Under the pieces are notes generated by a model. That model had not been told where the DNA came from. It searched no databases and saw only the letters and a program-made list of their open reading frames with translations. Of a stretch of DNA of 64,000 bases, positions 243-60,308 are shown piece after piece. Numbering within the stretch: the stretch's first letter is position 1; each line of letters starts with the position of its first letter. Both the position numbers and the translations under genes were made by a program. Origin of the DNA: a sulfur-oxidizing endosymbiont of Gigantopelta aegis (GTDB lineage Bacteria > Pseudomonadota > Gammaproteobacteria > GRL18); assembly GCF_016097415.1 (NCBI RefSeq), contig NZ_JAEHGE010000001.1, positions 1,766,015 to 1,830,014 of the forward strand. The letters run 5' to 3'.

Positions 243-1511
243 TTATTTTAGACGATTGATACCCAATGCTTTGAGTAGGTATTTTTCGTAAATGGGCTCG
301 CTAGAACCTGATTTCATTTTACGTATAAAATACTTTTCAAAACCAATCTTCGCTAAATGCACCCATTTACCTTTTTTAAACCAGGCAAGATTACGTGGTG
401 GAATTTGTGGAATCGCAACAAATGCTGCGCCCGTATTACCCATATCAGCCAGACAAATCGCATTCCAGGTTGCTTCGTGACTTGGTTCAATATCAGTCAG
501 TTCATCAGCAATATTATGTACAATGGCAGTAACCATAGACTCAATCATATAGCCAGTCTTAGGTGCGCCAGTAGGTACAGGTGTTGCTTCAACAGGTGGG
601 ATAGCAATACAGACACCGGCAGAAAAAATATTTGGATATTTAGGACTGCGCTGATGTTTGTCCACAATAACAAAGCCACGAGGATTACATAAGCCTTCAA
701 CACCGGCAACTGCATCAACACCTTTAAAAGCAGGTAGCATCATGCCATGTTTAAAAGGCAGTTCATGTTGTTTCTTAATGCTACCATCTTCATTGAGTTC
801 ATCAATGAACATTTTACCGGCTTCAATTTTGGTGGTTTTTGCATTACAAATCCACTTGATTGAATGCTGGCGTAATTCTGATTCGAGCATACCTTGTGAA
901 TCACCCACACCACCTAAACCTAAATGACCGATATAGGGTTCAGAGGTTACATAGGTCATTGGAACCTGGTCACGGAGTTTACGTTTTTGCAGTTCTCTAT
1001 TAAGAATGAAAGCGTACTCATAAGCAGGTCCGAAACAACTGGCAAAAGGCATGGCACCGACAATTGCCGGGCCTGGATCAGCTGCTAGTTCTTCAAAGTT
1101 TTTAAAGGCAGTTTCTGCATGAGGCAAAGAACAGATAGATTGGCTATGCTCTGATGGACCTGAACCTTCAACCTCTTCAAAGGCTAGACGGGGGCCAGTG
1201 GCTATTACTAAATAGTCATAGCTGATTTTATCGTTATTGTTTAAAGTGAGTTCATTTTTTGCGGGATCAATTTTATCGACCCGATGAGCAACAAAGTTAA
1301 TGCCGCGCTTTTCTAAATAAGGACGAGTTTCAAAGCTGATATCTTTTCTTTCGCGCCAACCGACCGCTACCCATGGATTAGATGGTGTGAAGTCAAAGGT
1401 TTCATTTTCACTGACCATGGTAATTAAATGTTCTTTATCCAATGCATCGCGCATTTCATATGCACAAGGCATTCCCCCAGTTCCCGCACCAATAATAACA
1501 ACGTGTGCCAT
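243..1511 (-). CDS. sqr: Sulfide:quinone oxidoreductase (FAD-dependent)
   Basis: This 422-residue flavoprotein probably oxidises sulfide and passes electrons to the quinone pool at the membrane surface. The N-terminus has the FAD-binding glycine motif GAGTGG (residues 8-13), followed by the SQR-typical FDFTPSNPWVAVGW stretch around residue 40. Cysteines at 127, 159 and 353 occupy the positions of the three redox or sulfur-bridging cysteines of the Acidithiobacillus enzyme (128, 160, 356), which argues for true sulfide oxidation rather than a generic NADH dehydrogenase. Length is normal. The ATG is preceded by a purine-rich AGGAGA. The gene stands alone, convergent with the relA-like gene. A flavocytochrome c sulfide dehydrogenase-like role is less likely because no cytochrome gene is adjacent. 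Confidence 0.88.
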   Translation of the reverse strand: MAHVVIIGAGTGGMPCAYEMRDALDKEHLITMVSENETFDFTPSNPWVAVGWRERKDISFETRPYLEKRGINFVAHRVDKIDPAKNELTLNNNDKISYDYLVIATGPRLAFEEVEGSGPSEHSQSICSLPHAETAFKNFEELAADPGPAIVGAMPFASCFGPAYEYAFILNRELQKRKLRDQVPMTYVTSEPYIGHLGLGGVGDSQGMLESELRQHSIKWICNAKTTKIEAGKMFIDELNEDGSIKKQHELPFKHGMMLPAFKGVDAVAGVEGLCNPRGFVIVDKHQRSPKYPNIFSAGVCIAIPPVEATPVPTGAPKTGYMIESMVTAIVHNIADELTDIEPSHEATWNAICLADMGNTGAAFVAIPQIPPRNLAWFKKGKWVHLAKIGFEKYFIRKMKSGSSEPIYEKYLLKALGINRLK

Positions 1512-2012
1512 AGAATATTATCTCCTGATAATTGATCAAATTAAGCTAATTTATTTTCAATGAATAATGAAAAATCCATTTTTAATAGGCATTGTTAACT
1601 ATTTAAAAAAATTCTGGAGCACTGAGTTATAAGCGCAGTGGCAGAGTGAAACAGCTAAAGAATGTATGTAATTAAAAATAGCATATTAATTTCAAGATGA
1701 AAGAAAATATGAAATAATTTTATGAAAGGAATAGTCTAATCAGCGTAATTTATGCAACTTAATACAGGGTGTTTTGAACACGCAATTATAAGTCTGTATA
1801 AATAGAAGATGATTTAATAAATTCATTTTTAAATTGTTCAAATTAAATATTATTATTTTAGTATATAATAATTTGAAGGTATAAATGAAGTATTATATAG
1901 ATGTGTCTGAGTTATTGTTTTTTACAATAATAACTTTTTTTAAATAAAAGTAAAGCAATTTATGACTATCGCATTCGATTATTTAAAAAAATCGTTATAA
2001 ACCGTTAGCTTT
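1512..2012. other. AT-rich intergenic region, 501 bp
   Basis: There is no convincing ORF between the start of sqr and the end of the fimV-like gene. A TATAAT hexamer at 1864-1869 is followed, on the plus strand, by a stem (GTTATTGT at 1911-1918 pairing with a bulged ACAATAATAAC at 1924-1934) and a run of T at 1935-1941. That arrangement looks like a weak promoter plus terminator for a short RNA of about 70 nt, but the whole stretch is so AT-rich that chance is a real explanation. The sqr promoter should also lie here; none stands out. Confidence 0.4.
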
Positions 2013-4196
2013 TTATAACTGATGTATGTTTAAAGGTGCATTCCAGGATTGTTGAAAAATGTTTTCAACGCGGTGACGCAATACAAGGTCAACGTTAAGT
2101 AAGTCGATGTTATTTTTGACATGTTGTATGAATTGATCACGTTGATTTGCAGAACTATAACAGTCAAATAATTTTAAATGTAAGTCTTTGCTGGTGGGCA
2201 TTTTTTTTAATTCATTCAGTAGTCGCGTCTCTGCTTCTGAATAATTGCCATAGGCAAGATAGGTATCAATTTCACTGATGATGCTATTCGATGTATTTGA
2301 CCTAGTCAGACTATTTTCATATTCTTCAATTTCAGCAGTACTGATGTTTAACTCAAAGGTGATATCAGTTTCTTCTTCAGCTTCAACAATAGGGCTAGAG
2401 CCTTTAGCAGGAGAAGATTTTGCCTTGCCTGTTGGAGCTGAGTTAGAGCCATTGGCTGGACTAGAGCCAGAGTCTTCATCCGGTGTATTCATTTTCTTTT
2501 CAAAATATTCAAAGAAATCCATGTCTTCCTCATCTTTTTCATCACTGATATCAGTGCCTTGTAATGATGATGCGCTAGGGACTGATTGGCTTGCGGCTTT
2601 TACCTTGGGTGTGGTCTCTATAAAGGAGGCTTTAACCGGTGCTGATGGCTTGTCGTTGCTTGGATAGGGGGTATATGCGCCTTGCTTTATTTGTTTTCTC
2701 TTGTCGTTTTGTACACGAAGAATAAATAGTGTTGCTACCAGGATAAGAATAGTAAATATGGCCAGAGCAAAGGCAATCACCGGATTTGCTAATAGTTCAC
2801 GGACAAAGGAGCGAGGTTTGTTTGTGCTTACAATAGGCGATTCGACTTCAAGTTCAATGGTATTTGTTTTAGGGATAACTATAGCTTGGTCATTATCAAT
2901 TTTAGAAATATTGCTACTTTGAGTGCTTGTGCTGTTCTTTTTAGGCGTATCGCCCTCCGTTATTTCAGATATTGCTTCTGAAATCGGTGCTGTTGTCTCT
3001 ACTTCTTGTTTTAATTGTTCTGTTATGATGGATATTTGGCTGTTCAAATTCCTATTATGAGAATCAAGTGTCTGTAATTGGGAGGTCAGAGCATTGATCT
3101 TATCGCTTAGGTTCTCATTCTCACTTTGTAAGGATTTGATTGTTGAAATCGATTTTTTTAGCGCCTGATTAATGATCTTAAGATCAGCCTTACTTGTGAT
3201 CGGTGTGTTTAACAGCGTTTCAGTGGTTGGAATGATTTTAAGTTGGGAGTGGCCTTCAGGCTCTGTATTACCTGGCTTGTTTTTTGCGATAGCTGATTTT
3301 GCACGTGTTTCCAAATCACTCAGAAGCATTGATTTATGCTTATTGTCTACTTGCTTGGTCAGTGTGTTTTGTTTACTCAGTGCATTTTGCTTGTTTTGTG
3401 TTGGTTTTTTATTTGTAGCGATATTTTTCTGGGCTTGGTTTGAATAAGTTAGGGAATTATCTGGTAGCTGCAGTACTTGGCCTTGCTTTAATAAATTAAT
3501 GTTATTATTGATAAAAGCATGGGGGTTTAACTCAAACAAGGCTTGCATGGTCTGATAAGTAGAAGCACTTTTATGAGATTTTACTTTTTTGGCAATTTCC
3601 CACAAGGTATCCGCCTGCTTGACTGTATAGGTAGTTTTATTGCTTGTCTCACTGGCAGTGCTATACGAAAATCCTGTTTGCTTGTTTTTGCGTGAGATGC
3701 TTGATTTGTTGGAACGGGGAGGCTTGTTATATTTTGCAGTACGGGCTATTTTTTTTGCTGATGTTTTTTGAGTGGGTTTGGCTTTACGAATTTGCTTATG
3801 GATAAACTCGGGAGGATCTAATAAGAAGGTATATTCACGATTAAGATGACCTTTAGGCCATTTGAGATCAGCGATAAAAGTAATAAAAGGCTCACGTATG
3901 GGTTTTTTTGAGCTTAATTCAATGACAATAGAATCATTGCTCATTTTTACCGCTTTAAAGCGTACTTTTTTGAAAATTTCCGGTCTGGGTAAACCGGCAC
4001 GTTGATAGGTGCTAAAACTTGCATTCTTAATGACAAAATCATCAACTAAATTACTTTCAGAATCAACTAAGACTATTTGAGCTTTTAATGGCGTGTTTAA
4101 GGAAGAAAAAACGGTGATGTCACCTAAGCCAAGGGAAAAACCACTGCTAGGAAACACTAGGCTGGAAATAAAGAAAAATACCGATTTTTTCAACAT
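2013..4196 (-). CDS. FimV/HubP-family inner-membrane protein with LysM domain
   Basis: This 727-residue protein has the FimV layout. A signal peptide (residues 1-21) is followed by the FimV N-terminal motif LGDITVFSSLNTPLKAQI. A LysM peptidoglycan-binding domain lies near 190-247 (YTVKQADTLWEIAKK) and a coiled coil near 350-405. One transmembrane helix near 480-504 leads into a long acidic Ser-rich cytoplasmic part with a TPR-like helical pair near 650-700. FimV/HubP proteins organise the cell pole for type IV pili and chemotaxis. It appears to lack the usual extra C-terminal FimV domain and is shorter than the 900 or more residues typical of Pseudomonas FimV. It is not next to truA or asd, the common neighbours. 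The pilus link is relevant because pilQ in this window is broken. Confidence 0.8.
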   Translation of the reverse strand: MLKKSVFFFISSLVFPSSGFSLGLGDITVFSSLNTPLKAQIVLVDSESNLVDDFVIKNASFSTYQRAGLPRPEIFKKVRFKAVKMSNDSIVIELSSKKPIREPFITFIADLKWPKGHLNREYTFLLDPPEFIHKQIRKAKPTQKTSAKKIARTAKYNKPPRSNKSSISRKNKQTGFSYSTASETSNKTTYTVKQADTLWEIAKKVKSHKSASTYQTMQALFELNPHAFINNNINLLKQGQVLQLPDNSLTYSNQAQKNIATNKKPTQNKQNALSKQNTLTKQVDNKHKSMLLSDLETRAKSAIAKNKPGNTEPEGHSQLKIIPTTETLLNTPITSKADLKIINQALKKSISTIKSLQSENENLSDKINALTSQLQTLDSHNRNLNSQISIITEQLKQEVETTAPISEAISEITEGDTPKKNSTSTQSSNISKIDNDQAIVIPKTNTIELEVESPIVSTNKPRSFVRELLANPVIAFALAIFTILILVATLFILRVQNDKRKQIKQGAYTPYPSNDKPSAPVKASFIETTPKVKAASQSVPSASSLQGTDISDEKDEEDMDFFEYFEKKMNTPDEDSGSSPANGSNSAPTGKAKSSPAKGSSPIVEAEEETDITFELNISTAEIEEYENSLTRSNTSNSIISEIDTYLAYGNYSEAETRLLNELKKMPTSKDLHLKLFDCYSSANQRDQFIQHVKNNIDLLNVDLVLRHRVENIFQQSWNAPLNIHQL

Positions 4197-4429
4197 AATA
4201 GAAATAATTAACCCTAAAAAGATGCTCTAATAATAAGAAATGTAAGACTATGTAAACTGAATGCTTTTTTTGGCTATTATACCTAAAAGTATGTCATTAT
4301 CACAATAAATCAAGTTATTAGGACAAGTTATGCTTTTTCCTGATATAAACTCAGCTAATCAATCATTAAAGTGTTAGATATGAATAAAATAAAAAAACAA
4401 ACTCGAATTTTCATTAATGGTTTTTTTCG

Positions 4430-5938
4430 ATGAGTTTGTGGCAATATATTGGCTGTGCTGTATTGCTTGTTTTTCCTCTCTTAGTAGGGAATGCTCATGC
4501 TAATTCTGGCGCTTTTAGTGAGTCAGTGAAGCCCTTTGTCTGTCAATTATTAACCCCCGCACAAAAATCTACTTTCCAACAACTTGAGGTATACCATCGG
4601 CAATTAAATAATGGCTTGCAGGTGTATTTATTGGAAAACCATCAATTACCGGTGTTTTCTTTAAGAATGATTGTTGATGTCGGTGCAGCAGATGAGCAAA
4701 TAAATGAGGCTGGTTATGCGCATTTGTTTGAACACATGATGTTTAAGGGCTCAAAAAATGTACCGGATGGTGGTCATTTTGATGCGATAAGGCAAATAGG
4801 TGGTCGCATTAATGCCAGTACCGATTATGACAAAACCGTGTATTGGACTGAAGCACCGGCGATGTATCTTGAACGGGTTTTATGGTTGGAAGCAGAACGG
4901 CTTGCTAATTTAACCATCAATGAAGCTACATTAGCCAATCAGCGTGCAGCGGTACTGGAGGAAAAATTATTACGCATTGATAATGTCCCTTATTTTAAAA
5001 TTGCCAGTGAGTTTATGGTATCAGCCTGGCAGGGGACTGATTATGATCATCTTATTATTGGCTCAGAGGAAGATATAAGCACTGCAAGGGTGCCTGAAGT
5101 GACAGCATTTTTTAAGCAATACTATCAGCCTGATAATATCATTTTAGTCTTAGTCGGTGACTTTGATACGGATGAAGTTATGGGGCAAATTCGTCAGTAC
5201 TTTAGTGTTTTAGAGAATGATGTTTTAGAGAATGATGTTTTAAAGAATGGATCTTTAGAAAATGATCGTATAAAAAACAATCCAGTATTTGTTACAAAAA
5301 AAAAAGGGAAGTCCGAACGCCATTATGATCCATTAGCGCCTTTTCCTCTTTATGCTTTAGGCTGGCATACTCCGGGCAAGCATAATTCAGACTTTTATGC
5401 GGTTGAATTATTGGCTGATATTCTTTTAAATCATGATGCTGCTCGTTTAAAACGACTCTTAAAAGATGACCGAGCCTTGGTTTTTGAAACGATAGGCATG
5501 CCGCTGACTTTTGAGCAAGCGGGTATCACTGCAATGGGCATGGTGCCACATAGTTATGCCGATTTTTCACAAATACAAATGATAGTGAAAACTGAACTGG
5601 AAAAAATTCAACTCAATGGTGTATCGGACGCAGAATTATGTAGTGCAAAAAAACATCGCCAATTAATGATTTTAGAAAAAACAGCCGACAATCGTCAAAT
5701 AGCGGCTCTTATTGGTGATGGGGTATTGTTTTTTAATGATCCCTTACAGTTTATATCTGCGCTTGATGCATATCAGGGCGTGGAACATGCACAAATAAAG
5801 CAAGTGGCAAAGCAATATTTTACCGACGATTGGCTGGCCTTAGAAATAGAGCCGGGTGTTGGTATGCGTCTGGTAAAGTGGTTAATGGAAGTCTTGCCCC
5901 AGGGCTGGAGTGAGTCATTGGAGCAGCAATTTCTATGA
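4430..5938 (+). CDS. M16 family zinc metallopeptidase (catalytic member)
   Basis: A 502-residue pitrilysin/processing-peptidase-type protease, probably periplasmic. A hydrophobic signal peptide ends around AHA (residue 24). The inverted zinc motif HxxEH is present (H98, E101, H102 in HLFEH), with downstream acidic residues E177/E178 as the third ligand, so it should be active. The C-terminal M16 lobe follows. The next gene overlaps by 4 bases (ATGA) and encodes a sister protein without the zinc motif, the usual active/inactive pair that forms one chamber. A run of four 15-bp repeats in the linker near residues 260-279 is specific to this copy. Confidence 0.88.
   Translation: MSLWQYIGCAVLLVFPLLVGNAHANSGAFSESVKPFVCQLLTPAQKSTFQQLEVYHRQLNNGLQVYLLENHQLPVFSLRMIVDVGAADEQINEAGYAHLFEHMMFKGSKNVPDGGHFDAIRQIGGRINASTDYDKTVYWTEAPAMYLERVLWLEAERLANLTINEATLANQRAAVLEEKLLRIDNVPYFKIASEFMVSAWQGTDYDHLIIGSEEDISTARVPEVTAFFKQYYQPDNIILVLVGDFDTDEVMGQIRQYFSVLENDVLENDVLKNGSLENDRIKNNPVFVTKKKGKSERHYDPLAPFPLYALGWHTPGKHNSDFYAVELLADILLNHDAARLKRLLKDDRALVFETIGMPLTFEQAGITAMGMVPHSYADFSQIQMIVKTELEKIQLNGVSDAELCSAKKHRQLMILEKTADNRQIAALIGDGVLFFNDPLQFISALDAYQGVEHAQIKQVAKQYFTDDWLALEIEPGVGMRLVKWLMEVLPQGWSESLEQQFL
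5207..5266 (+). repeat. Four in-frame 15-bp tandem repeats in M16 gene
   Basis: Units starting at 5207, 5222, 5237 and 5252 follow the pattern GTTTTAGAGAATGAT with increasing divergence. They encode a pentapeptide repeat (VLEND, VLEND, VLKNG, SLEND) in what should be a surface loop or linker of the peptidase. The first two units are nearly identical, so copy number may vary by slippage. Confidence 0.85.
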
Positions 5939-7512
5939 AAATAGAAAACATTATGATCGCTTTATTCAGTGTATTATTGCTATCCAGTTGCGGTAATTTG
6001 AGTATGCAACAAGATATTTCTCAAGTTATACCGGTCAAAGATGTTTATCTAAATCCCGAACCTGAATCTGATTTTTTACCCAAGTCAATCAGACAAAGTG
6101 AAAGAAAAAATACTGTCACTGATGCTAGTATCGAAGTGATTAGCGATGGAAAATTTCAGCAAATCATTTTAGATAATGGTTTATTGATAGATTATAGGGT
6201 GCGTGATCAGATACCCGGTATTCGTTTAGCAGTTTTAGTCGAAGCAGGAAAATATCACCTAAATCCTAAAGATGAATTACTTTCACCTCTGGTATTGAAG
6301 CTATTAAAACAGGGTAGTAAAAAATACCCCTATGAAAAATTTCAGCAATATGCCAGTTTATTAGGTCAGCCTATTCATTATTGGCAAAGTGCACATTACT
6401 CAATCATGTCGGTAGATATCTTGCCTCAGGATTTGTCTTTTGCTTTGGATTTAATGTCACAGCAAGTGGGTTTTCTTGTTCCAGATATGATTAGTAACTC
6501 TGATGCTGCGCTAGAGCAAACTGCATTAGATCGAATAGTACAGCAGCAATTATTAGAAAAAAAGTTAACGCAATCATCGGGGACTTATCTAGCTCGATTA
6601 TTATTTTATCAGTTGCATTATTCCCCAAGCCATCTTTATTATCACTCTCAGGCCAATAGCAAGGCGATAAAAGAAGTTAAAATAGCAGAACTCATGGCTT
6701 TTTATCAACAAAAATATCAGCCTCAACATAGCCGTATTATTTTGTCGGGAAATATTGATGTACAATCATTAAACAAAGAAGTTAATCGCTACTTTTCCTC
6801 TTGGAGTGATAAGTCTGAAGCTTTAAATAGAGATAAAAAATTAAAGATTGAAGCAGAACAGAGTAGCAATACCTTGTTGATAGCTCAGAATCGTTTTGAT
6901 TATATTGAACGCCAGGGCTCGCAACAAATTGACTTGCTTTACGGACGGGTGACCGTAGCCAGAGATTCGCCGGATTGGCCAGCTTTAAAAATATTGGCTG
7001 CTGTTTTAGGGGGAGGGCCAAATTCGAGGTTGTTCATTGATCTGCGTGAACGACAAGGACTCATGTATGCCATTAAGGCCAGACAATTAAGTGGGCGCTA
7101 TAAAAGTCCGTTCTTGATTCAAACATCTATCGCCCATGAAAAATTATTAGATACCATTAATGGTATCAATAATCACCTTGATGAACTTTGTCATAATCCT
7201 GTCAGTGAATTCAGTTTAAAAAAGATTAAACAGCAAATGTTGGGGGAGAATATTTTTAAGTTTCAAACCAATAGGCAATTGGTGAACAATAAAATCCTGC
7301 AATTTGAAAATGATTTGGTTGATGATTATTCAAAAATTCTGAATAAAAACATTGCCAACATAAGCACACAGCAATTATTTTCGGTGGCAAAGCGATATTT
7401 TTGTCAGGAACGCCAATTCATTGCTGTCGGGCAAATTAAACAGTTTGAGAAAAGCATAAAAAAGGCCTTGAATAATTATGCTATTGAACAACACCGGTTG
7501 CCATTAGAGTGA
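5935..7512 (+). CDS. M16 family peptidase-like lipoprotein (non-catalytic partner)
   Basis: A 525-residue protein whose N-terminus has a lipobox (LLSSC, Cys19), suggesting a lipid-anchored periplasmic protein. It has two M16-type lobes: the C-terminal one has GGGPNSRLFIDLRERQGLMY, the substrate-binding R/Y region typical of M16B subunits. The position of HxxEH in the first lobe is occupied by LSPLVLKLL and no other copy is visible, so it should not bind catalytic zinc. It overlaps the catalytic gene by 4 bp, indicating translational coupling and probably a heterodimer. Substrates cannot be predicted. Confidence 0.85.
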   Translation: MKIENIMIALFSVLLLSSCGNLSMQQDISQVIPVKDVYLNPEPESDFLPKSIRQSERKNTVTDASIEVISDGKFQQIILDNGLLIDYRVRDQIPGIRLAVLVEAGKYHLNPKDELLSPLVLKLLKQGSKKYPYEKFQQYASLLGQPIHYWQSAHYSIMSVDILPQDLSFALDLMSQQVGFLVPDMISNSDAALEQTALDRIVQQQLLEKKLTQSSGTYLARLLFYQLHYSPSHLYYHSQANSKAIKEVKIAELMAFYQQKYQPQHSRIILSGNIDVQSLNKEVNRYFSSWSDKSEALNRDKKLKIEAEQSSNTLLIAQNRFDYIERQGSQQIDLLYGRVTVARDSPDWPALKILAAVLGGGPNSRLFIDLRERQGLMYAIKARQLSGRYKSPFLIQTSIAHEKLLDTINGINNHLDELCHNPVSEFSLKKIKQQMLGENIFKFQTNRQLVNNKILQFENDLVDDYSKILNKNIANISTQQLFSVAKRYFCQERQFIAVGQIKQFEKSIKKALNNYAIEQHRLPLE

Positions 7513-56374: not shown

Positions 56375-57202
56375 TTATCGAACATCCCCGTCAGTGCTTT
56401 GAACTAATGCGGTATCAACTGCCATTAATGGTTTTAAGGTGGTTAATAAATTATTAAACAAACGCTTATTCGACTGTTCTTCCTGTGCCAGTAATTGCTT
56501 CATGTGATCTCGCTGGGTTGGCATGCTGAAACAAGCAGGGCAACTATCAGGAATAACGGGTAATTGTGCTGCTTTGGCATATTCGCTTGTCAGTGCTTCA
56601 CGGGCATAGACTAATGGGCGAATGACACGAATATCTCCGGCTTGAATACTATAATTGGCCTTCATGGTCTGTAATTTACCATTATGAAAAGCAGACATCA
56701 GAAAGCTTTCGGCCAGATCATCTAAATGCTGTGCGAGCGCTAAGACATTGTAGCCCTCTTTGCGAGCGGTACTATATAAAATACCGCGCTTCATGCGCGA
56801 GCAAAACGAACAAAAGGAATCACCCTCCATTGCGCCTTCTGCTTGTTCTAAAATGGCCTGCTCCTGATAGAAATAAGGCACATCCAAATCAGCTAAATAG
56901 GCTTTTAATGGCGATGGGTCAAAGCCCTCTATTTGTGGATCAACGGTAATTGCACCAAGATGAAATTTTACGGGTGCATACTGTTTTAAATGGTGCAAAA
57001 TAAGTAATAGTGATAGTGAATCCTTACCTCCAGAGACGCCTAATAGAATTCTATCACCCTCATTGATCATTTTAAAATCAGCAATGGCACGCCCGACATG
57101 ACGCATGAGGGGTTTAGGTGGTTTTAGGTAGTTAACCTTGGTTTTGCTAGCTGAATTCAAACTTATTGATCCATCGATGATGTTAATTGATAGCGGTGAC
57201 AT
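56375..57202 (-). CDS. ttcA: tRNA 2-thiocytidine(32) synthetase, TtcA type
   Basis: 275 residues. PP-loop GVSGGKDSLS (near 54) with the cysteines of the iron-sulfur cluster in CSFCSRMKRG and the later DSCPACF. ALAQHLDDLAESFLM matches the GHHxDD region with changes. The N-terminal 25 residues before RHVGRAIADFKMI are extra compared with E. coli. It thiolates cytidine 32 in certain tRNAs. Adjacent to the acyltransferase gene, with no evident functional link. Confidence 0.87.
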   Translation of the reverse strand: MSPLSINIIDGSISLNSASKTKVNYLKPPKPLMRHVGRAIADFKMINEGDRILLGVSGGKDSLSLLLILHHLKQYAPVKFHLGAITVDPQIEGFDPSPLKAYLADLDVPYFYQEQAILEQAEGAMEGDSFCSFCSRMKRGILYSTARKEGYNVLALAQHLDDLAESFLMSAFHNGKLQTMKANYSIQAGDIRVIRPLVYAREALTSEYAKAAQLPVIPDSCPACFSMPTQRDHMKQLLAQEEQSNKRLFNNLLTTLKPLMAVDTALVQSTDGDVR

Positions 57203-57325
57203 TTGTCACTTAGCCGGTATCTTAACAGACTGATGGCTCTTTTTTAAATAGACGGGCTTTCTTGTTCGTCTGATTTTCTTTGCATGAGGTGTTATGTTTA
57301 ATGTGCTGTGCTGATGCTGCTCCAA

Positions 57326-58192
57326 TTAACTGCGAGCAATCTTCATTAAATGAGAAGCTTCCACTAAGAGGCAGTCAGCATGATCTGTTTGTTTTAAATA
57401 GGCCACCACGAGTTCAGAGGCTTCGCCCGTTAGAATATTGTTAATGCGTTCCATGGCCTTAAATTGTTCAGGTTTAAAGTCAATGACATCATTAATATCA
57501 TCAATCCGTAAAGCAACCGTTGGCGTGGTGCCGTCTTCGGTGATATAGAGTAAGACCTGACGGGTTGATTCTTTTAAATGCGTACGTGCTTGTTCAAAGC
57601 GTTTTAGGAGTCGTTTTAGAGTGATATTTCTCTCATAACGTAATAAATGTAGGGCATGATCAAGATCCTTATCTTTTTTCATATCCAGAAGCTTGTCAGC
57701 TAGAGAATGAATTTGTTTATGCGGCTGATCAAATTCAGCCAATACTTCCATCAGGGTTTCATCGCGGGTGTTAAAATGGTCATACCACTGGCCAAAGGCA
57801 CATTTGTGGGGATCTTTGACCTTAGTGAATGGGGTATCATTAACGAGACTATCTTCTAAGGCTTCTACCCACTCAACATGGTCTTTTTCTCTATCACAGA
57901 GTAATTGGATTAGTTCATTACTGTTTTCAACACCTGAAGCAAAGCCCAGCATATTGGCAAAATCTAATACCGGCACTGCATGGTTCTGAAATTCTACCAT
58001 ACCAACTAGTCCCTTAGCCCGTGCGGGGAGTGACTGAATATTGCCCATTTCCTGACTAATAGTGAGCACTCTCGAAATATCGATGGCATAGAGTGTATCG
58101 GATACCCAAAATGTAAATGCTCTGAGGCCTTGTGAGTATTGATCCATCATTTGATGATTGGATGGAAGCAATTCAACTGCTGACATATTCAT
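57326..58192 (-). CDS. CheW-like protein interrupted by a CZB zinc-binding domain
   Basis: 288 residues. Residues 22-95 form the first CheW half (RAFTFWVSDTLYAIDISRVL, then GLVGMVEFQNHAVPVLDF). Residues 100-175 are a chemoreceptor zinc-binding (CZB) domain with H105, C131 (in CAFGQWY), H158 and H162 (PHKQIH), the complete 3His-1Cys set. A helical connector leads to residues 210-285, the second CheW half (LLYITEDG, VALRIDDINDVIDF, ending LLVEASHLM). CheW couples receptors to CheA; CZB binds zinc and senses oxidants such as hypochlorous acid. No che genes are nearby. Confidence 0.87.
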   Translation of the reverse strand: MNMSAVELLPSNHQMMDQYSQGLRAFTFWVSDTLYAIDISRVLTISQEMGNIQSLPARAKGLVGMVEFQNHAVPVLDFANMLGFASGVENSNELIQLLCDREKDHVEWVEALEDSLVNDTPFTKVKDPHKCAFGQWYDHFNTRDETLMEVLAEFDQPHKQIHSLADKLLDMKKDKDLDHALHLLRYERNITLKRLLKRFEQARTHLKESTRQVLLYITEDGTTPTVALRIDDINDVIDFKPEQFKAMERINNILTGEASELVVAYLKQTDHADCLLVEASHLMKIARS

Positions 58193-58481: not shown

Positions 58482-60308
58482 GTGAAAGATATTAGTAAAA
58501 TCAGAAACATCGCCATCATTGCACACGTTGACCATGGCAAAACCACGCTCGTAGATGAGCTTCTTAAACAATCAGGCACCTTCGATGAACGCGACGAAGT
58601 GTCAGAGCGTATGATGGACTCTAACGATCTGGAAAAAGAACGTGGCATCACGATTTTGTCCAAAAATACGGCGATTGAGTGGAATGATTACCACATCAAT
58701 ATCGTAGATACTCCGGGACACGCCGACTTCGGTGGTGAAGTAGAGCGGGTACTCTCCATGGTTGATTGTGTTTGCTTGTTGGTTGATGCCGTTGAAGGGC
58801 CGATGCCACAAACCCGCTTTGTCACACAAAAAGCCTTTGAACTTGGTCTGAACCCGATTGTTGTAGTCAATAAAATTGACCGTGATGGTGGTCGCCCTGA
58901 TTGGGTTGTTGATCAAACCTTCGATTTATTTGACCGCTTAGGTGGCACGGATGATCAGTTGGACTTCCCGATTGTTTATGCCTCAGCCATTAATGGTTAT
59001 GCTTCTTTAGAAGATGATGTGCGCGATGGCGATATGACTGCTTTATTTGAAACGATTGTGGAAAAAGTATCACCACCCGATGTAGATATCAATGCACCTT
59101 TTCGAATGCAAGTCATCAGTCTTGACTATAATAGCTATTTGGGTGTTATCGGTATCGGTCGTATCAAGCAAGGTACCATCAGTGCTAATACACCGGTTAT
59201 TATTGTTGATAGCGAAGGTAAAGAGCGTAAAGGCCGTATGTTGAAACTATTTGGTTTCAAAGGCTTGGAGCGTGTTGAAGTCCCTGAAGCACAGGCGGGT
59301 GATATTATCGCTTTCTGTGGTATTGAAGGGCTAAATATTTCCGATACCCTATGTGATCCAACTTCAGTTGAAGCGATGACCACACTAACGGTTGATGAGC
59401 CAACGGTGACCATGACTTTCCAAGTGAATAATTCCCCTTTTGCTGGTCGTGAAGGTAAGTTTGTGACCTCACGTCAAATCAAAGATCGTTTAGAAAAAGA
59501 ATTATTGCATAACGTCGCATTAAAAGTTGAGCAAACTGAAGATCCTGATAAATTTAAAGTTTCTGGTCGTGGTGAATTACACCTCGGTGTTTTGATTGAA
59601 AATATGCGCCGTGAAGGCTTTGAACTGGGTGTTTCTCGTCCAGAAGTGATCACCAAAGAAATTGATGGTGTCATGAGCGAACCGTTTGAAGAAGTGATGC
59701 TGGATGTTGAAGATGAGCATCAGGGCAGCATCATGGAAAAAATGGGTGATGTCAAAGGTGAACTGACCAATATGGTTCCCGATGGCAAAGGTCGTGTCAG
59801 ACTGGAATATATCGTACCTTCAAGAGGTTTGATTGGTTTCCAAACTGAATTTATGACCCAAACATCCGGTAGTGGCTTGTTTTATCATAACTTCTCTCAT
59901 TATGGCCCTATGCTATCAGGTGATTTTGCCAAGCGTGATAAAGGTGTTTTGATCAGTAATGGTCAGGGTTCATCGGTTGCCTTTGGTTTATTTAACCTAC
60001 AGGAACGTGGTCGTCTGTTTATCGGCAGTGGTGTTGATATTTATGAAGGCATGGTAATCGGTCTTCATTCTCGTAGCAACGACTTAGTGGTGAATGCCCT
60101 GAGAGCGAAACAACTGACTAACGTACGTGCATCTGGTACTGATGAAGCGGTGACTTTAACCACGCCTATTACCATGGCGCTGGAACAAGCACTGGAATTC
60201 ATTGATGAAGATGAACTGGTTGAAGTGACACCAGAAAGCGTACGTATTCGTAAGCGTTTATTGACTGAAAATGAACGTAAACGTGCGGGTCGCTCTAAAA
60301 AGACTTAG
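58482..60308 (+). CDS. typA: Translational GTPase TypA/BipA
   Basis: 608 residues. G1 is AHVDHGKTT, then [11 protein letters not shown] and VVNKIDR. Beta-barrel domain II, EF-G-like domains III and V and the BipA C-terminal domain with [19 protein letters not shown] follow. A ribosome-associated GTPase for assembly and stress growth. The start is GTG at 58482 with GGACTTT upstream. Full length. Confidence 0.97.

Follow-up and report, generated by a model that had tools for sequence, protein, structure and literature searches.

A CheW-family adaptor interrupted by a CZB domain and its co-occurrence with one chemosensory cluster in gammaproteobacteria

Which chemosensory array does a CheW adaptor serve when a CZB domain sits inside it, and what could the CZB domain do there? 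The question is raised by one gene of a sulfur-oxidizing endosymbiont of Gigantopelta aegis, located in the stretch of 64,000 nucleotides that we analyzed, called here the window (contig NZ_JAEHGE010000001.1, positions 1,766,015 to 1,830,014). Proteins combining CheW with CZB are a published class, which represents 1.4% of 10,140 CZB proteins and is most abundant in Clostridia (Perera et al. 2021, PMC8262984); they are also listed as known in an account which proposes that domains fused to CheW make it an input (PMC10653840). The reading that we favor, with a probability of about 0.38, is that in its family CheW-CZB is an alternative adaptor of one type of array, sensitive to zinc or oxidants through putative zinc binding and a zinc-cysteine switch. 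This array would be the one encoded by a CheA/CheW/CheR/CheD/CheB cluster, designated below the L152 type. Our observations concern the sequence, the fold match, the conservation of the ligands, the loss of the E38-R62 pair, and the co-occurrence with the cluster; from them we infer zinc binding, array membership, the switch, and the output.

We analyzed the domain layout of the window protein (Table 1). Pfam assigned CZB to residues 105 to 168 (50 bits, 4e-13; cutoff, 29.4) and CheW to two stretches (34.5 bits and 1.9e-8 overall; cutoff, 23.5), the better of which, residues 26 to 91, corresponds to profile positions 3 to 67. The C-terminal half, scanned alone as a construct, gave no CheW match with Pfam. 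We compared profiles of the two halves with canonical CheW in hhalign: the N-half profile (51 N-halves, 40 kept by the program) matched columns 58 to 121 with a probability of 98.9%, and the C-half profile (51 C-halves, 45 kept) matched columns 129 to 199 with a probability of 94.4%, which places the CZB insert at the junction of the CheW halves. A CheW match was thus obtained on both sides, by Pfam for the N-half and by profile-profile comparison, not by Pfam alone, for the C-half. Promoter and terminator scans at the gene gave no more signals than shuffles would.

Table 1. Positions in the window of the CheW-CZB-CheW gene, its parts, and its neighbors
Feature	Position	Strand	Basis
CheW-CZB-CheW gene, 288 aa	57326..58192	-	Open reading frame, ATG start
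CheW N-terminal half, residues about 20-88	57929..58135	-	Pfam, hhalign, AF2 strands 23-77
Helical CZB insert, residues about 87-209 in the model	57566..57934	-	AF2 helices; VIA 3t9o_B
CZB Pfam core, residues 105-168, with ligands H105, C131, H158, H162	57689..57880	-	Pfam and alignment
CheW C-terminal half, residues about 211-288	57329..57562	-	hhalign; VIA model range 20-288
Presumed typA/bipA-like GTPase gene, divergent neighbor, outside the system	58482..60308	+	Adjoins the relative's gene in 9/9 loci L009-L017
Presumed ttcA-like gene, downstream neighbor, outside the system	56375..57202	-	Also flanks the empty site

The AlphaFold2 model of the window protein had a mean pLDDT of 71.5, with values of 43 to 69 in blocks of ten residues over the C-half; the other four models of this protein scored 54.6 to 58.9. 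Foldseek returned CheW as the top match. With VIA-align, 139 of the 140 residues of CheW (2ch4_Y) aligned over model residues 20 to 288 (Z 14.9), and 116 residues of the DgcZ CZB domain (3t9o_B) aligned over residues 90 to 208 (Z 13.2). A relative from Halochromatium (L019), whose CheW sequence is more ordinary (78.9 bits in Pfam), yielded a model with a pLDDT of 83.1 that aligned to all 140 CheW residues (Z 17.5) and to 3t9o_B (Z 13.8). A receptor four-helix bundle (9kup_B) also aligned, with Z scores of 13.7 on the CZB stretch of the window model and 13.4 on the L019 model; the fold is not specific among helical bundles, and the CZB identity of the insert rests on its sequence. The predicted fold, at modest confidence, is that of a complete CheW into which a helical bundle resembling CZB is inserted. 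Taken together, the Pfam matches to CheW and CZB, the half profiles, and the models identify the predicted product as a CheW-family adaptor with CZB inserted between its two beta-barrel subdomains, as a sequence-only reading had proposed.

We then looked for relatives. The species-genome scan matched 13 loci, of which nine were full-length relatives from gammaproteobacterial MAGs with 70 to 85% identity and two had 35 and 39% identity (Saccharospirillaceae, Halochromatium roseum); the remaining loci were a partial match (L020) and another CZB protein (L021). The 13 titled loci came from 12 MAGs, including one symbiont MAG, and from one strain, Halochromatium roseum. The class sample gave matches in 11 of 369 genomes at E 1e-20, one match being interrupted by an in-frame stop, and the phylum sample in 27 of 398 genomes at E 1e-12, namely the window's genome, 24 genomes matching most of the model, and G407 and G536 with partial, weak matches. 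No relatives were found in plasmid records searched at E 1e-5. Removal of identical rows left 52 distinct CheW-CZB sequences, some incomplete and the window's included: 16 from the window's family, 11 from other carriers in the species and class scans, and 25 from a second group of carriers in the phylum sample. L021 was excluded as another CZB protein, and L061, L062, and L064 were excluded since they match only part of the model. Genome G445 has two CheW-CZB genes (L051 and L063) near each other on the same strand.

All four zinc ligands (H105, C131, H158, and H162 in the window protein), as well as W108 and W136, were kept in 52/52 sequences, five of which had been preselected for H105, W108, and C131: 47 had been chosen by profile score alone (from 50 rows), and the five came from 13 family loci, all of which passed a pattern demanding these three residues. 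The complete 3His-1Cys set proposed from the sequence, at the places named, was thereby borne out. The residue after the zinc cysteine is alanine in 42/52 sequences; in PMC8262984, it is described as poorly conserved or alanine in three subgroups that include CheW-CZB. In one sequence of another genome (L035, G160), the CZB retains all four zinc ligands but lacks the FG motif that otherwise follows the cysteine.

How does this form relate to known proteins? Like the published class, the window protein combines a CheW-like domain with a 3His/1Cys CZB in a single polypeptide; that class is most abundant in Clostridia, whereas the sequences collected here come from the window's class and phylum, and the available text of PMC8262984 on CheW-CZB makes no distinction between inserted and appended domains, names no member, and reports no test. 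TlpD and DgcZ have a CZB with the same ligands, in which the cysteine-zinc site is the target of HOCl and zinc (PMC6715182, PMC8262984), but it is located at the end of a receptor or of a diguanylate cyclase and not inside an adaptor. In CheWS of Treponema denticola, CheW is likewise combined with a sensor domain, which turns the adaptor into an input; in that experimentally characterized protein, a CheR-like domain that senses SAM is fused to CheW, whereas a zinc domain would lie within CheW here (PMC10653840). We did not find the inserted form described in the literature searched. The novelty implied by the sequence-only reading is borne out only in part, CheW-CZB being already a described class (PMC8262984, PMC10653840). 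The available text of these two papers tests no CheW-CZB protein and describes none in which CheW is split by the CZB; relative to it, three points are new: a true insertion, the loss of E38-R62, and an apparent co-inheritance with one chemosensory cluster.

The second of these points bears on whether CheW-CZB couples receptors to a kinase. In E. coli CheW, a salt bridge between Arg62 and Glu38 keeps the receptor and kinase sites aligned; the bridge, which is invariant in class F7, is required for function but not for assembly, and R62A CheW retains binding with impaired chemotaxis (PMC3828127). The window protein has T44 at the Glu38 place and Q69 at the Arg62 place, so that the conserved pair is absent. 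The pair is likewise absent in 49 of the 50 scorable CheW-CZB rows, only L019 having both residues, counts that describe related sequences and not independent events. The Glu place is occupied by Ser, Thr, or Ala in 46 of these rows, and the Arg place by Gln in 28 and Arg in 19; in the second group, Arg is often retained and Glu is not. Both residues are present in 30/30 rows of CheW, CheV, and what we take to be PilI-like proteins of the window's family (one row a duplicate). This comparison set, built without an RG-motif filter from 36 loci (29 with a CheW-like mid-locus frame, 7 dropped), covers the window's own family, with PMC3828127 standing for class F7. As the pair is nearly always lost, ordinary receptor-kinase coupling of the CheW type is not to be assumed for CheW-CZB. 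The sequence-only reading had proposed that zinc or oxidant (HOCl) controls receptor-CheA coupling itself; the structure models and the ligands kept in 52/52 sequences are compatible with such control, and the loss of E38-R62 tells against taking the coupling to be ordinary.

The same loss is an argument for an alternative that we consider somewhat unlikely, namely, that CheW-CZB is a divergent CheW without productive receptor-kinase coupling. Bound to receptors, or to nothing but other CheW-like domains, it would dilute the array, act as a spacer in it, or block CheA, its CZB serving mainly to homodimerize. CZB domains are homodimers (PMC8262984), the R62A variant shows that binding may persist while chemotaxis suffers (PMC3828127), and FrzB of Myxococcus xanthus, which like CheW-CZB is a divergent CheW that coexists with a normal CheW, shows no interaction with its CheA (PMC6952110). 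Against this stands the invariance of the four ligands and of W108 and W136, which is beyond the needs of a dimer handle. We know of no CZB in FrzB of Myxococcus xanthus.

We then examined the genetic context. The window's gene is an orphan next to typA and is not encoded in or beside an L152-type cluster; no chemotaxis gene adjoins CheW-CZB in the window or in L009 to L017 (names by eye). Among genomes without CheW-CZB, the site between the genes that we take to be typA and ttcA is empty in L157, L158, L160, L161, and L163 (ttcA of L163 is partly in view) and holds a remnant of 34 CheW-CZB residues in L162; in L156 and L159, the contig ends before the site can be judged. Just downstream of CheW-CZB, 8 of the 9 close relatives L009 to L017 have NfeD-like and band-7/stomatin-like genes (by eye, Pfam-checked for L009 alone); the pair is absent at this place in the window (57203-57325), where ttcA comes next. 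Neighbors are mixed in the second group, with no single partner emerging. Two of the three f67 genomes have a globin-like gene immediately downstream of CheW-CZB and co-oriented with it, after gaps of 54 and 95 bases (L066, 5991-7319, Pfam Bac_globin 1.2e-37; L073, 2371-3734, globin by eye). In L075 (G493), a gene two places away from CheW-CZB encodes a receptor-like protein of 1037 aa that contains a CZB-type motif (1086-4199 and 5877-6689; motif match only).

The window's genome has three CheA P3 matches, one of them in the L152 cluster. This cluster is composed of STAS, CheY, CheA, CheW, ParA, a receptor, CheR, CheD, CheB, a second STAS, a receiver-SpoIIE-HATPase protein, and an Hpt-like protein (CheY, CheD, STAS, and Hpt were identified by eye). 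The cluster CheW resembles that of E. coli (5e-39), the receptor contains globin, PAS, PAS, HAMP, and MCP domains, and the receiver-phosphatase-anti-sigma order is that of CrsR/HsbR. We liken the cluster to F7 systems such as Shewanella Che1, a label taken only from its gene content and the E. coli-like CheW. Che1 itself belongs to class F7 and presumably acts on RpoS (PMC9855816, PMC6482189). In Shewanella oneidensis, Che1 with CrsR-CrsA resembles L152 in having CheA, CheW, CheY, CheR, CheD, CheB, and a PAS-domain receptor, together with a receiver-phosphatase-anti-sigma regulator and an antagonist partner in the cluster; the endosymbiont's receptor has an added globin domain and its cluster an added ParA, and the available portions of the Che1 accounts do not mention CheW-CZB (PMC9855816, PMC6482189). 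At L154 (G000:C1:1340000-1356000), several copies of transposase-like frames surround the single-domain CheW gene of another system (by eye). Genome G000 also has three further Pfam CZB matches (L022, L023, and L025), two receptor-like (376 and 503 aa) and one GGDEF-EAL-CZB-like, the non-CZB parts being assigned by eye; species seem to have either CZB receptors or CZB cyclases and not both, according to PMC8262984.

Does CheW-CZB go with this cluster? In the window's family, 15 of 24 genomes matched the P3 domain of the L152 CheA at E 1.1e-20 or better, the best match among the other nine being 2.8e-17. An intact CheW-CZB was found in 15/15 genomes with the L152-type CheA versus 0/9 without it (Fisher P = 7.6e-7, counting G317, whose copy has an in-frame stop, as lacking CheW-CZB; the other eight have no CheW-CZB). 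A third CheA type showed no link to CheW-CZB in this family (5/15 carriers versus 2/9 noncarriers), and a second CheA type and flagellin each showed a weaker pattern (15/15 versus 5/9). In the class sample, a P3 match at E 1e-18 was found in 9/11 carriers versus 110/369 genomes (P = 0.00045) and, counting only genomes with a CheA, in 9/10 carriers versus 110/236 (P = 0.007); with 110/369 genomes matching, this cutoff is a rough class marker and not a test for the cluster. The two carriers without such a match are G317 and G302. In G317 (L028/L164), an in-frame TAG interrupts CheW-CZB and one receptor match, and no CheA or flagellin match was found; the stops may reflect decay of chemotaxis or a question of assembly or code.

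The cluster CheA and CheW were found by tblastn in 14/14 stretches from other carriers, including all eight class-sample carriers outside the window's family, G302 among them (CheA is truncated by the edge of the contig in L168 and L173); these stretches, picked around CheA or receptor matches, describe clusters and are no random test. Of these clusters, 8/14 contain the receptor's globin segment and 6/14 a long match to the receiver-SpoIIE-HATPase protein; some flank past CheB is visible in L167, L169, L171, and L174, with no such protein, and the flank is out of view in the other four. The common core is thus CheA and CheW, with CheR, CheD, and CheB wherever these are in view, and the globin and Crs-like parts do not belong to it.

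An unlikely possibility is that CheW-CZB serves instead the flagellar array, of the CheY-CheZ-CheA type, or several arrays, and conveys a zinc or oxidant signal to swimming. All 15 genomes with an intact CheW-CZB have the second CheA and flagellin, and in one genome of the second group, L074, CheW-CZB adjoins flagellar-looking genes (by eye). The second group also has no L152-type CheA by the P3 criterion in the 12/12 genomes examined (best E 4.4e-17 to 1.4e-13), and the partner of its CheW-CZB must therefore be another, so that the pairing with the L152-type array does not hold for all carriers. The weaker pattern within the window's family argues against this possibility, as five of the nine genomes that lack an intact CheW-CZB keep both the second CheA and flagellin.

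Could the association have arisen from loss? On the TypA tree, CheW-CZB and the L152-type CheA change seven times in the same taxa, but only two independent pairs have good branch support, too few to give a tree-corrected test of co-inheritance any power. Family genomes without CheW-CZB are smaller (P = 0.0009), and 4/9 of them are at least 90% complete; shared loss through genome reduction is therefore possible. That CheW-CZB has no tie to a given array, it and the cluster both being dispensable and lost together, is nevertheless a distinctly improbable explanation, favored by these smaller genomes and the weak tree support but at odds with the family genomes of 2.9 to 3.5 Mb, which still sort completely by the L152-type CheA (six with both, four with neither), and with the retention of flagellin and the second CheA in 5/9 genomes without an intact CheW-CZB.

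We return to the reading of CheW-CZB as an alternative adaptor of the L152-type array and propose how it may work. CZB domains are described as ordered when zinc is bound and disordered when it is not, and modeling indicates that the redox or zinc state reaches the ends of the domain, the N- and C-terminal helices alpha1 and alpha5; zinc homeostasis has been offered as an input besides HOCl (PMC8262984). In the window protein, each end of the CZB joins one CheW half. With the E38-R62 bridge gone and the CZB ends in both halves, a register held by zinc is the simplest mechanism: the zinc-cysteine state of the CZB would set the relative position of the two CheW subdomains and so do what the salt bridge does in ordinary CheW. 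Zinc-bound CZB would hold the subdomains in register, zinc loss or oxidation of C131 would free them, and the loosened ends would change receptor control of CheA. A stricter version, in which the zinc-ordered bundle wired to both subdomains has replaced the salt bridge and zinc or an oxidant switches CheA directly without a receptor, appears quite unlikely. In clusters with the STAS/RR-SpoIIE-HATPase pair, as in the window's genome, the output would probably be a partner switch acting on stress physiology rather than, or besides, swimming. The presence of RR-SpoIIE-HATPase in only 6/14 other clusters lowers our confidence in the array reading and in the receptor-free switch.

CheW is usually treated as a passive coupler; with a zinc or redox switch between the two subdomains, the adaptor would itself act as an input. 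If true, a CheW switched in this way would allow the control of CheA by CheW geometry to be tested cleanly, and the apparent co-inheritance described here suggests a concrete array and a proposed partner for the published CheW-CZB class.
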